From an uncultured Erysipelotrichaceae bacterium (GTDB lineage Bacteria > Bacillota_I > Bacilli_A > RFN20 > CAG-826), in assembly GCA_902800355.1 (NCBI GenBank), contig CADCEE010000010.1:1-37311 (forward strand): a DNA stretch of 37,311 nt, written 5' to 3'. Within the stretch, counting starts at the first letter, position 1, and every line of letters starts with the position of its first letter. Position numbers and translations under genes: made by a program. Below the pieces are notes generated by a model, which was given only the letters and a program-made list of their open reading frames with translations, was not told the DNA's origin and did no database searches. Shown here piece by piece: positions 3,614-36,647 of this stretch.

Positions 3614-4419
3614 ATTTTCTCTCCAATACTTTCTAAAGAATCAGACTCATTAACGTCGATTCCTAACTCTTTAATTTTGGTCTTTAATTCAATAATAAAC
3701 GGCAAATCTAGGTTATATTTTGAAATAATGTCCGTTTTTTCAAATAATTCACTAGGTTTGCAGTTAAGTACATTTACCCCTTCATGCATTAAAATTATCC
3801 GGTCAGAATCATACGCTTCATTAATGTCGTGAGTAATCGAAATAATAGTGAGATTAGGATTCTCACTTCTCATCTTTTTGACCAAGTTTAAAATATCTTG
3901 CTTGCCGGCTGGATCAAGCATACTAGTAGCTTCATCTAAAATTAATATTTCTGGATTTCTAATTAAAGCATCCGCAACTGCGACTCTTTGTTTTTGTCCT
4001 CCAGATAAATATCCTGGCTCTTTAGTTAAGAAGGGCTCCATTCCGACTTTTTGAGCGTATTCTTTCACTAAAGTTAGCATCTCCTCTCTAGGAACACACA
4101 TGTTTTCTAAAGAAAAGGCTATATCATCTTCCACGGTCGCTCCGATAAATTGGTTATCAGGATTTTGGAAGACGATTGCAACTTTTTTACGTATCTCATT
4201 AATGTTTTTGTTATTTAGCTCTAATCCACATATCTCAATATTTCCTTCGTTAGGGAATAATAAACCTACTAATAATTTAGCAAGGGTAGATTTACCACAT
4301 CCATTATGTCCAACAAGAGAAACATATTCGCCTTGGTTAATTTGTAAAGATAAATCTTTAATAACTGGTCTATCTTTGATATATGCATAAGATAAGTTTT
4401 TAATGGATACGCATTTCAT
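3598..4419 (-). CDS. ecfA1: Energy-coupling factor ATPase EcfA1
   Basis: 273-aa ABC ATPase. Walker A is GHNGCGKST (about residues 37-45), Q-loop FQNPDNQF, signature LSGGQKQRVAVADAL, Walker B ILILDEATSMLD, and switch His in SITHDINEA. It pairs with EcfA2 and EcfT. In most Firmicutes this gene directly follows rplQ; here about 13 kb of other genes separates them. No SD precedes the ATG; instead a TATAAT box sits 7 nt upstream, which predicts a leaderless mRNA. Confidence 0.95.
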   Translation of the reverse strand: MKCVSIKNLSYAYIKDRPVIKDLSLQINQGEYVSLVGHNGCGKSTLAKLLVGLLFPNEGNIEICGLELNNKNINEIRKKVAIVFQNPDNQFIGATVEDDIAFSLENMCVPREEMLTLVKEYAQKVGMEPFLTKEPGYLSGGQKQRVAVADALIRNPEILILDEATSMLDPAGKQDILNLVKKMRSENPNLTIISITHDINEAYDSDRIILMHEGVNVLNCKPSELFEKTDIISKYNLDLPFIIELKTKIKELGIDVNESDSLESIGEKICKLK

Positions 4420-4426
4420 GTCGACT

Positions 4427-4432
4427 ATTATA
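4427..4432 (-). promoter_or_regulatory. -10 box of a predicted leaderless promoter for ecfA1
   Basis: A perfect TATAAT (minus sense) is separated by only 7 nt from the ecfA1 ATG, so transcription should start at or within a base or two of the start codon. The 20 nt before the ATG contain no purine-rich SD. The -35 region is weak (about 4450-4455, TAGAAT) and falls inside an 8-bp inverted repeat, AACAAAAT/ATTTTGTT (4440-4447 and 4463-4470), that straddles the stop codon of the sigma-factor gene. Confidence 0.55.
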
Positions 4433-4452
4433 ACAAGTTATTTTGTTTCATT

Positions 4453-5058
4453 CTATTGATTGAACAAAATATTTGCTAATTTACGTCTGACTGAATCAAT
4501 TTGATACCGAACTTTGCCATATGTTGAATTTGTTAACTTCACAATATCGTTAATGGTGTAACCACCTAGATAGAGTCGAAAAACATCTATATCCTTTTGA
4601 GCAAATTTGTGTTTTGGGTTAGAAAAAATCTCATCTAAATTGAAGCTATAGATAAATTCATCTTCTAAGTTTTGTGCTTTTTCTTTTAAGAAACTATTAT
4701 AAGAAACACCTTCTTCTAAATTTAAAAAGTCATCGATGTTGCTCTTATGAATATTAGTAAATTTGCTGACATATGAAGTTACTTCATTAGTCGCTGCAGT
4801 TTTCCAGTAGCAATAAAAAACACTGTTTTCATCATAAAAACTTCTAATCGAAGAAAAAAGCGCACCAAGGCAAATACAATAAATATCTTCATATTCGACT
4901 TGATATAAAAAGTTGAACTTATCAAATAGTTCTCTGGCTAGCTTCTTTGAAAATCTTTGATATCGCGATATTAACTCAAATTCGACATCGTCATTACGTT
5001 GTTTCTTATATAGCAAAACTAGTTCGTTATCGTTTATGTTTTTGTATTTTTCAAACAT
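4453..5058 (-). CDS. Sigma-70-family RNA polymerase sigma factor, SigH-like by context
   Basis: 201 aa. Residues about 9-110 resemble sigma region 2: LVLLYKKQRNDDVEFELISRY, then VEYEDIYCICLGALFSSIRSF and YCYWKTAATNEVTSYV, equivalent to the usual D-x-x-Q-x-x-F core and its DNA-binding helix. Residues about 150-195 look like a region 4 helix-turn-helix (DVFRLYLGGYTINDIVKLTNSTYGKVRYQIDSVRRKL, in part). The order cysS-rlmB-sigma is the same as in Bacillus (cysS-mrnC-rlmB-rae1-sigH), with mrnC and rae1 missing, so it may descend from SigH. It is strongly divergent, so the target promoters are unknown. Its SD is embedded in a terminator hairpin (5059-5079). Confidence 0.72.
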   Translation of the reverse strand: MFEKYKNINDNELVLLYKKQRNDDVEFELISRYQRFSKKLARELFDKFNFLYQVEYEDIYCICLGALFSSIRSFYDENSVFYCYWKTAATNEVTSYVSKFTNIHKSNIDDFLNLEEGVSYNSFLKEKAQNLEDEFIYSFNLDEIFSNPKHKFAQKDIDVFRLYLGGYTINDIVKLTNSTYGKVRYQIDSVRRKLANILFNQ

Positions 5059-5079
5059 AAAAAAACTCCCTTCAGGAGT
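5059..5079 (-). promoter_or_regulatory. Terminator/attenuator hairpin that contains the SD of the sigma-factor gene
   Basis: In minus sense ACTCC-TGAAG-GGAGT is followed at once by a run of T that ends at the ATG (5058). The right arm holds GGGAG, the only SD, 7 nt before the ATG. The element can thus terminate transcription between rlmB and the sigma gene and, if read through, hide the SD. An alternative pairing of CCTT (upstream, about 5088-5091) with AAGG in the hairpin could compete. The structure is visible in the sequence; a regulatory role is inferred. Confidence 0.6.
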
Positions 5080-5102
5080 ACTACCAGTTAAGGTTTTTAT
5101 GT

Positions 5103-35155: not shown

Positions 35156-35164
35156 GATTGGTCC

Positions 35165-36064
35165 TTATAATTTTATAATTTTAGATATATCTAAAACCGA
35201 TATATTTTTTGGTAATCTCTTTTCGATCGTATTAGTGAAAACCAAATCTTGAACGTGAGATTCTAATAATCTATCAATGCTCTTATTTGATAAAACAGCA
35301 TGACTTGCTCCAACTAAAACAGATTTGGCGCCATGTTGTAATAATAAATTACAAGCAGACATAATAGTAATGCCAGTATCGATAATATCATCTAAAATGA
35401 TACACACTTTTCCTTTAACATCATCTTCGAATTCTAGATGCTCTGCGTAGTTAGGGGCAGTTCTAATTTTGCTTAAAATAACTTTTCTAGTACCAGGAAG
35501 TTCTTTTACTAAAGCATCTGCTCTAGTATTAGCGCCGTGATCTGGAGAGACAACTAAAACATCTTTGATATCGATATTTTGCTTATTTAAATATTCTTTA
35601 TAGTACTTTGCAAACAAACTGGTAGTTGGTAAAGAAGTGAATTTAGTTTTAAAGAATTTTTCAATATCCGGATGATGCAAGTCGAAGGTTAATATTTCAT
35701 CAACTTTTGCAGTATCTAATATTTTAGCAACTACTTCACATGAAATTGGCTCATTAATCCAGGACACTCTTTCCTGTCTAGAGTATCCAAAGTAAGGAAT
35801 ATAGAGTTTAATGGTCTTAGAACCGGTCCTTTTTATAGAGTCAATGAGTAGAAGAAGCTCAAATAATCTCTCATGGGCTTTGATAGCGGTACTTTCGAAT
35901 ATAACAACGTCTTTATCTTTGCAGCTAGTGAGAGTTTTAACAAGTACCTCTCCATCCTTAAAATGGTCGATTGAAATCTCGCCTAGCTCAGCGTTATATT
36001 TCTTAGCGATACGTTTAGCAAGACGACGATTTGATAGTAAAGAGAAAATAATTAAATTACTCAT
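35165..36064 (-). CDS. prs: Ribose-phosphate pyrophosphokinase-like enzyme, divergent
   Basis: 299 aa, slightly short for the family (about 315). It has the two phosphoribosyltransferase-like halves, IPYFGYSRQER, FDLHHPDIEKFF, VLVVSPDHGANTRADAL and the PRPP loop CIILDDIIDTGITI. The flexible loop keeps Lys and Arg (SKIR for DKRR). The segment after RQER is VSWINEPI instead of the usual K-x-R-x-R-EPI, and the C-terminus lacks the usual SVA-x-LFA-x-AI end. It likely makes PRPP, but divergence leaves room for a changed specificity. The ATG has no SD; it lies one base after the stop of a small ORF (TGATATG), suggesting coupled reinitiation. Confidence 0.88.
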   Translation of the reverse strand: MSNLIIFSLLSNRRLAKRIAKKYNAELGEISIDHFKDGEVLVKTLTSCKDKDVVIFESTAIKAHERLFELLLLIDSIKRTGSKTIKLYIPYFGYSRQERVSWINEPISCEVVAKILDTAKVDEILTFDLHHPDIEKFFKTKFTSLPTTSLFAKYYKEYLNKQNIDIKDVLVVSPDHGANTRADALVKELPGTRKVILSKIRTAPNYAEHLEFEDDVKGKVCIILDDIIDTGITIMSACNLLLQHGAKSVLVGASHAVLSNKSIDRLLESHVQDLVFTNTIEKRLPKNISVLDISKIIKL

Positions 36065-36065
36065 A

Positions 36066-36209
36066 TCAAACGTAGTACTTGCAGGCCATTAAGACCATCT
36101 CCTTATTCGCCAAATATTCATCTTTTATACGTTTTTTGTCAAATAAAACGCCATTTTTCTTATAAAAATCAGCTAATTCCTTAGTGAAAACCATTCCCTG
36201 ATCTTCCAT
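36066..36209 (-). CDS. Possible small protein, 47 aa, coupled to prs
   Basis: An ORF of 47 codons fills the gap between the 153-aa gene and prs. Its product has a plausible composition (TKELADFYKKNGVLFDKKRI, then KEMVLMACKYYV at the end) with alternating hydrophobic and charged residues. It overlaps the 3' end of the 153-aa gene by 37 nt and ends one base before the prs ATG. There is no SD for its ATG; an internal ATG at codon 41 has AAGGAG 9 nt upstream, so even a 7-aa version could couple to prs. No function can be assigned. Confidence 0.45.
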   Translation of the reverse strand: MEDQGMVFTKELADFYKKNGVLFDKKRIKDEYLANKEMVLMACKYYV

Positions 36210-36634
36210 TTTGTAAAGTCTCTATTTGGATCATATTTTTCACAGTAATCACCAACATAATAAAGGATGTCATCTGATATCATCCACTTATCTAAAGAGT
36301 AATCAAGATTGAGGCCTACTGTTCGAGCACAATAGGAATTCTGGAAGATTTGTTTATAGATATTCTCATTGAAGTCATTATCTAAAATAAAATCACTCAT
36401 CAAGATTCCTTCAATGTTCTCAAAGGCAACGTAACCCGTCTTTTTGTCAAGCTTAAAAACCCTGGGCATGATAACCGCAGATTTAATTAATTTTCTAAGC
36501 ATATCGAATTCAACTGAATCAGGATTATATTTTTTTATTAAATATACTTTATTATTATAATTAGCCTTAAAAGTATCTTTAGATACAATCTCAGAAACCT
36601 CAAATTCTTTACGTTTAATCTTTATATTTTCCAT
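36173..36634 (-). CDS. Hypothetical protein, 153 aa, kinase-N-lobe-like pattern
   Basis: I do not recognise a family. Residues about 10-80 have a pattern reminiscent of the small lobe of kinase-like folds: a beta-rich stretch with YLIKKY, a helix (EFDMLRKLIKSAVIM), and a hinge-like YVAFENIEGILMSDF. The remainder (GLNLDYSLDKWMISDDILYYVGDYCEKYDPN) may be a reduced second lobe; the usual H-G-D-x-x-x-x-N loop is not seen. It could be a small or degenerate member of the aminoglycoside-phosphotransferase/protein-kinase-like group, but this is weak. It has a TATAAT 7 nt before the ATG and no SD. First gene of the prs-tgt-queA-queH unit. Confidence 0.75.
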   Translation of the reverse strand: MENIKIKRKEFEVSEIVSKDTFKANYNNKVYLIKKYNPDSVEFDMLRKLIKSAVIMPRVFKLDKKTGYVAFENIEGILMSDFILDNDFNENIYKQIFQNSYCARTVGLNLDYSLDKWMISDDILYYVGDYCEKYDPNRDFTKWKIREWFSLRN

Positions 36635-36641
36635 CTCGATT

Positions 36642-36647
36642 ATTATA
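36642..36647 (-). promoter_or_regulatory. -10 box of a predicted leaderless promoter for the 153-aa gene
   Basis: TATAAT (minus sense), then 7 nt, then the ATG at 36634. A TTGACT lies further upstream but at 22 nt spacing, which is too long for a standard pair. Confidence 0.5.

Follow-up and report, generated by a model that had tools for sequence, protein, structure and literature searches.

In three streptococci (S. pyogenes, S. agalactiae and S. pneumoniae), leaderless mRNAs make up 8.6–9% of the total; in S. pyogenes the share is 8.6%, 81% of these are common to S. agalactiae, and entry into translation by 70S ribosomes or IF2 is reported (PMC6431027). Zheng et al. (2011), in a survey of 2010 genomes, recorded genes preceded directly by a TATAAT-like box (TA-led genes) in 56 of 209 Firmicutes genomes at, as the table row reads, 4.2% (2.4–16.6), the cases falling mainly in Lactobacillales and Mycoplasma, with a mean of 18.3% in five Mycoplasma genomes; they argue that leaderlessness is open only to operon-proximal genes and that distal genes usually need a Shine–Dalgarno (SD) sequence (PMC3160421). 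Nine apparent leaderless transcripts are listed for M. gallisepticum (PMC4245973). Here we analyzed a 37,311-nucleotide (nt) stretch of DNA from an uncultured Erysipelotrichaceae bacterium (contig CADCEE010000010.1 of assembly GCA_902800355.1; hereafter the window), in which five minus-strand genes, namely ecfA1, cysS, a 105-amino-acid (aa) gene, a glycosyltransferase (GT4) gene and a 153-aa gene, have a -10 box 6–10 nt before the ATG and no SD, and for the most part are predicted to be leaderless or nearly so.

The lineage is a new example of a known mechanism, and it fits the kind in the testable features, cysS excepted. As in TA-led genes, TATAAT stands just before the start, TG precedes the box in low-GC genomes, and operon-proximal leaderless genes accompany distal SD-led ones; the surveyed Firmicutes cases are concentrated in Lactobacillales and Mycoplasma, whereas the present lineage is known from metagenome-assembled genomes (PMC3160421). 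With the streptococcal leaderless mRNAs it shares the class Bacilli, a similar share and strong conservation between species, although those were mapped by differential RNA sequencing in cultured species and ours are predicted in an uncultivated lineage (PMC6431027). In the -10-adjacent open reading frames (ORFs) of Deinococcus-Thermus the box likewise lies directly against the ORF and gives rise to a leaderless mRNA, but there the mode is common and the box is TANNNT, whereas here the mode is a minority one with TATAAT, partly accompanied by a -35 element or TG (PMC12340547). The original prediction held that such an arrangement is not the norm for Bacillota; this was overstated, given 8.6–9% published for streptococci against an excess of about 8–13% of first genes here. 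Among the matches listed in our literature search, no paper on leaderless genes of this lineage was found.

The promoter-like elements of the five genes are as follows; gap denotes the nucleotides between the -10 box and the ATG.

4432-4427, minus strand: -10 box TATAAT of ecfA1, gap 7, ATG at 4419-4417; from the sequence
7185-7180, minus strand: -10 box TATAAT of cysS, gap 10, ATG at 7169-7167; from the sequence
12023-12018, minus strand: -10 box TATAAT of the 105-aa gene, gap 6, ATG at 12011-12009; from the sequence
17182-17177, minus strand: -10 box TACAAT of the GT4 gene, gap 6, ATG at 17170-17168; from the sequence
17205-17200, minus strand: -35 element TTCAAA of the GT4 gene, 17 nt from its -10 box; from the promoter scan
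36647-36642, minus strand: -10 box TATAAT of the 153-aa gene, gap 7, ATG at 36634-36632; from the sequence

Re-reading of the minus strand returned every box, coordinate and gap of the original prediction, and the GT4 -35 element at 17-nt spacing, TTCAAA, was seen in a sequence scan too. All five genes scored 0 for an SD before the start codon, as had been claimed, and the genes named as SD-led were so: hydC, preT, yebC and pepT scored 5–7, and the rpsJ ATG is preceded by GGAGG. The box-to-ATG distance is 6–7 nt, as in TA-led genes, in four of the five; in cysS it is 10.

From the promoter-like signals and their spacing, enrichment and conservation, all computed here, we infer that transcription from ordinary sigma-A-type promoters would start at, or 1–4 nt from, the start codons, leaving ecfA1, the 105-aa, the 153-aa and the GT4 genes leaderless or nearly so and cysS with a short SD-less leader; we assign this reading a probability of about 0.82. 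The leaderless mRNAs would presumably be read by direct, or IF2-assisted, binding of 70S ribosomes to the 5′-terminal AUG, and most other genes would rely on SD pairing with the anti-SD (ATCACCTCCTTTCT), which is intact in the 16S tail of this genome. A full gene for ribosomal protein S1 (rpsA) was not detected in the genome by the TIGR00717 model (best score 57.9 bits, cut-off 577); this lends weak support at best, because 12 of 14 control genomes also fell under the cut-off.

We compared box frequencies with chance in a gene-based sample comprising the window and 20 further stretches (437 kb, or 38% of the 1.14-Mb genome, which is 97.9% complete; GC 34% in the sample). Genes were called by a script from codon-scored ORFs; called starts are approximate, because the script takes the 5′-most ATG. 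A near box was defined as TATAAT with at most one mismatch at gap 5–9 before the ATG, SD-less status followed the script's SD score, and 200 shuffles and 200 Markov resamples of the upstream sequence served as baselines. The sample held 143 first-in-unit genes (first genes), 65 of them SD-less, and 220 internal genes, 66 of them SD-less. Near boxes preceded 26 of the 65 SD-less first genes, 10 of them exact TATAAT, compared with means of 7.5 (maximum 14) in shuffles and 7.8 (maximum 15) in Markov resamples, so the enrichment over shuffled upstream sequence put forward as a check was obtained on this part of the genome. Two same-genus genomes behaved similarly: 36 of 92 SD-less first genes were boxed in G001 (means of 9.9 in shuffles and 11.1 in Markov resamples) and 26 of 89 in G006 (10.1 and 10.0). 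The excess of near boxes thus corresponds to 12.7%, 13.5% and 7.9% of first genes in the own sample, G001 and G006, respectively. A narrower run with exact boxes at gap 4–10 gave 12 of 121 first genes (shuffles 2.3, maximum 8) and 2 of 204 internal genes (shuffles 2.3). Near boxes were concentrated in first genes as a whole (26/143 versus 13/220 internal), which bears out part of the earlier proposal that two initiation modes are sorted by operon position; the sorting is unclean, however, because 55% of first genes have an SD, and a clean split into leaderless first and SD-led internal genes was rejected on that count.

The boxes also exhibited the properties of promoters. Among SD-less first genes pooled from the three genomes (529 first genes in all), 36 boxes lay at gap 6, 10–19 per position at gaps 7–12, and 2–13 per position at gaps 13–44, whereas SD-led first genes had 0–3 boxes per gap between 2 and 12 and numerous boxes at distances of about 15 nt and more. 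A -35 element, counted as a TTGACA-like hexamer with at least four matches, was enriched only at spacers of 17–19 nt (30 of 88 near-box genes versus 8–16 of 88 in seven other windows); SD-led promoters showed a similar peak (24/66 at 17–19; 20/66 at 14–16). TGn preceded 16 of the 88 pooled near boxes. In Mesoplasma florum, transcription start sites lie mostly 6–7 nt past the -10 box (PMC7745072), and by analogy the spacing found here fits a transcription start 6–7 nt after the box.

Usable orthologs were available for 8 of the 26 boxed first genes; the other 18 had none in the DNA compared. All 12 orthologs of these eight genes have a box whose gap is the same to within 1 nt (shuffle 3/12), with an SD in none, and the box persists in 9 of 9 orthologs (five genes) below 90% protein identity. 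At the same divergence, SD-led first genes retain the SD in 98 of 100 orthologs and have a near box in one, and internal SD-less boxed genes, ecfA1 excluded, keep the near box in 6 of 24; orthologs of SD-less boxless first genes gain a box in 5 of 52. The layout is kept between species, as in streptococcal leaderless genes, for the eight boxed first genes with orthologs, ecfA1 and the 153-aa gene, but not for cysS.

Several observations weigh against a leaderless interpretation. About 7–8 of the 26 boxes in the own sample are expected by chance; internal SD-less genes, a class that includes ecfA1, were boxed in 13 of 66 cases versus 5.9 and 4.5 expected (maximum 13 in both baselines); the 5′-most-ATG rule gives a wrong start at least for rpsJ; among pooled SD-less first genes, exact TATAAT occurs 10 times at gap 9 and 9 times at gap 6, which makes leaders of a few nucleotides probable for some genes; and the contrast between SD-led and SD-less genes is partly built in, because an SD takes up the position in which a near box would lie. 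In the whole own genome, moreover, TATAATN{4,10}ATG had 206 matches against 198 for the reversed pattern, and TGNTATAATN{5,8}ATG had 7 against 8, with no enrichment in either case. The gene-based test was weighted above these raw counts, which were set aside as a poor test, because most such ATGs are presumably not start codons. In a different account, the boxes reflect chance in AT-rich DNA together with selection for unstructured, A/T-rich starts, and the genes have ordinary leaders from farther promoters and initiate without an SD. In its favor, the GC content is 34%, raw motif counts do not exceed the reversed pattern, and chance alone would give some 7–11 matching SD-less first genes in each sample. 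We consider that account improbable, since none of the shuffles or resamples reached the observed numbers in any of the three samples from the genus, and since the gap-6 peak, the -35 elements at 17–19 nt and the retention of the gap in orthologs also stand against it.

Among the five genes, ecfA1 is a well-supported prediction and the clearest leaderless case.

3598..4419, minus strand: ecfA1, energy-coupling factor (ECF) transporter ATPase, predicted leaderless (NCBIfam TIGR04520, 336 bits, cut-off 315)
4427..4435, minus strand: extended -10 element of ecfA1 (TGTTATAAT), predicted mRNA start at the A of the ATG (4419) or 1 nt before

In 48 related loci (one further locus was dropped), a box at gap 4–10 precedes ecfA1 in 47, with gap 7 in 38, gap 8 in 5, gap 4 in 2, and gaps 9 and 10 in one each; TGn stands before the box in 36, and an SD in none. 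The single relative that the script called boxless (L039) has TGATATAAT at a distance of 7 nt from an ATG that lies three codons further on, and this exception looks like a question of the start codon. After removal of upstream sequences at least 70% alike, 22 of 23 retain the box; box columns are conserved at 70–91%, most other columns at 35–65%. In the same loci, ecfA2, the internal gene that follows in the unit, has an SD in all 48 and a near box in none, and the first gene yebC has an SD in 46 of 46, with a box 17–38 nt away in 36 of 46. Placing ecfA1 first in its unit is provisional, because its start lies only 33 nt past a same-strand 201-aa ORF and a terminator scan between the two found none. 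The start codons themselves might be mis-assigned, the true start being a downstream codon with its own SD; start calling from sequence is uncertain and the script misplaced some starts, yet orthologs of EcfA1, CysS, the 105-aa and the 153-aa proteins align from residue 1 in the listed matches, few excepted, the ecfA1 start codon being backed by this N-terminal conservation, and we regard this explanation as very improbable.

Outside the family, 31 genomes were asked and 30 ecfA1 loci obtained, of which 19 have an SD of at least 4 nt and 5 have a box at gap 5–9. Three of these five (L224, L226 and L229) are plausible, the box in L207 results from a wrongly placed start, and in L223 a further TATAAT lies at gap 22; the starts of L205, L207, L218, L225 and L232 in this list look badly placed by the script. 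The idea that leaderless ecfA1 is exclusive to the own family was rejected on the three plausible cases.

The evidence for cysS is different in kind, and it is here that short leaders have to be weighed.

5832..7169, minus strand: cysS, cysteinyl-tRNA synthetase (PF01406, E 1.3e-116)
7180..7188, minus strand: extended -10 element of cysS (TGATATAAT), 10 nt from the ATG; from the sequence

As a further point against leaderlessness, the spacing of cysS drifts: a box at gap 4–10 was found in only 5 of 49 relatives and an SD in 23, and the box lies at gap 11–19 in 20. Leaderless status for cysS, weakly supported, was accordingly rejected as a firm assignment on the evidence of these relatives, and its mRNA probably has a very short SD-less leader, predicted at about 3–4 nt. 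Short SD-less leaders might apply to all five genes, with transcription starting 2–10 nt before the AUG and 30S subunits initiating without an SD; besides cysS, the pooled boxes at gaps 9–12 and the equal frequency of exact TATAAT at gaps 9 and 6 favor this. Nonetheless, the main peak of near boxes is at gap 6, ecfA1 keeps gap 7–8 in 43 of 48 relatives, and the 105-aa and 153-aa genes stay at 6 and 7, respectively, so that we hold this general alternative to be a serious but rather unlikely one. The leaderless reading put forward originally stands well for ecfA1, and relatives support it for the three genes that follow.

11694..12011, minus strand: 105-aa gene, predicted leaderless, no Pfam match, terminator hairpin upstream at 12094-12076
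15227..17170, minus strand: GT4 gene, alpha/beta hydrolase-like plus glycosyltransferase, predicted leaderless (PF00534, PF13439; weak hydrolase matches)
36173..36634, minus strand: 153-aa gene, divergent from pepT, predicted leaderless, no Pfam match

Each of the three orthologs found for the 105-aa gene (L023, L024 and L031; protein identity 52–67%) has its box at gap 6. Two orthologs of the 153-aa gene were found among 256 loci, L177 (72% identity) and L192 (37%), and both have TATAAT at gap 7. Read by eye, the GT4 relatives in L029 and L035 (55% identity) have TATAAT 9 nt before an ATG and lack an SD; the one in L030 (45%) does not show this layout. The 153-aa protein has only sub-threshold similarity to Bud32-type kinases.

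Beyond the genus, the same pipeline gave 2.2% of 131 first genes in G014, of the same order, and 10.4% of only 53 first genes, with 5.3% of internal genes, in G046, of another family in that order; in G164 and G165, of the same class, it gave nothing above chance. Across 28 loci of Gemella, Oribacterium, Clostridiales and others, a non-random sample because all loci surround cysS, the figure was 1.4% of 243 first genes. Compared with the few other Bacilli sampled by this pipeline, the level in the own lineage is high, but not unique. As a spacing control, we counted TGNTATAATN{5,8}ATG (near) against TGNTATAATN{13,16}ATG (far). The own genome had 7 near versus 4 far matches, the eight genomes of the genus 73 versus 47, and the 92 genomes of the family 853 versus 554, with near exceeding far in 75, the reverse in 15 and equality in 2. 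Elsewhere in the class the direction could be opposite (18 versus 64 in G163, 35 versus 67 in G165); across the class the far spacing is not a neutral control, because some of the listed far matches carry SD-like sequence. The leaderless trait thus looks patchy in the class and, as far as promoter-like signals can tell, clearly present in the own lineage.

Three further counts of TGnTATAAT were conspicuous. The 15 genomes of genus g43 in family f5 (e.g., G043, G049 and G082) had 180 near versus 72 far matches; given this 2.5-fold excess, g43 may use leaderless genes more often than the genus of the window does. Within the class sample, G315 had 33 near versus 5 far matches and none for the reversed near pattern, and G229 had 27 versus 3, with 3 reversed.

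The 201-aa ORF upstream of ecfA1 (4453-5058, minus strand) is sigH-like, although its matches to SigH models (E 4e-5) fall far short of the cut-offs. A terminator-like hairpin (5059-5079, minus strand; ACTCC/GGAGT plus a T run) ends directly at its ATG, so its 3′ arm could double as an SD. By eye, and in a survey in which the starts of many other loci were badly placed by the script, the hairpin layout recurs with changed stems in 12 of 48 loci (L021–L025, L027, L030, L031, L037, L052, L066 and L070; L026 is without it), and in the more distant L036, L038 and L059 a GGAG SD is paired in a hairpin lacking the T run. This layout suggests that the sigma-like gene is controlled by attenuation or at the level of translation.

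One conjecture, which we hold tentatively and consider rather doubtful, is that in the own lineage ecfA1, which opens the ECF-transporter ATPase unit, is selected to stay leaderless, the extended -10 element and 7-nt distance being kept while the flanks change. Leaderlessness would then couple ECF output to the state of ribosomes or initiation factors, or keep sigH-like read-through untranslated. The ecfA1 gene provides a clean, well-conserved case for asking which selection maintains leaderlessness. Gene callers that rely on SD sequences may misplace such starts in these genomes. Judged by CysS, the nearest named relatives are metagenome-assembled genomes of uncultivated Bacilli, several of them from rumen or other gut samples; the finding adds an uncultivated rumen/gut lineage to the Bacilli in which a set part of the genes apparently relies on leaderless mRNAs.

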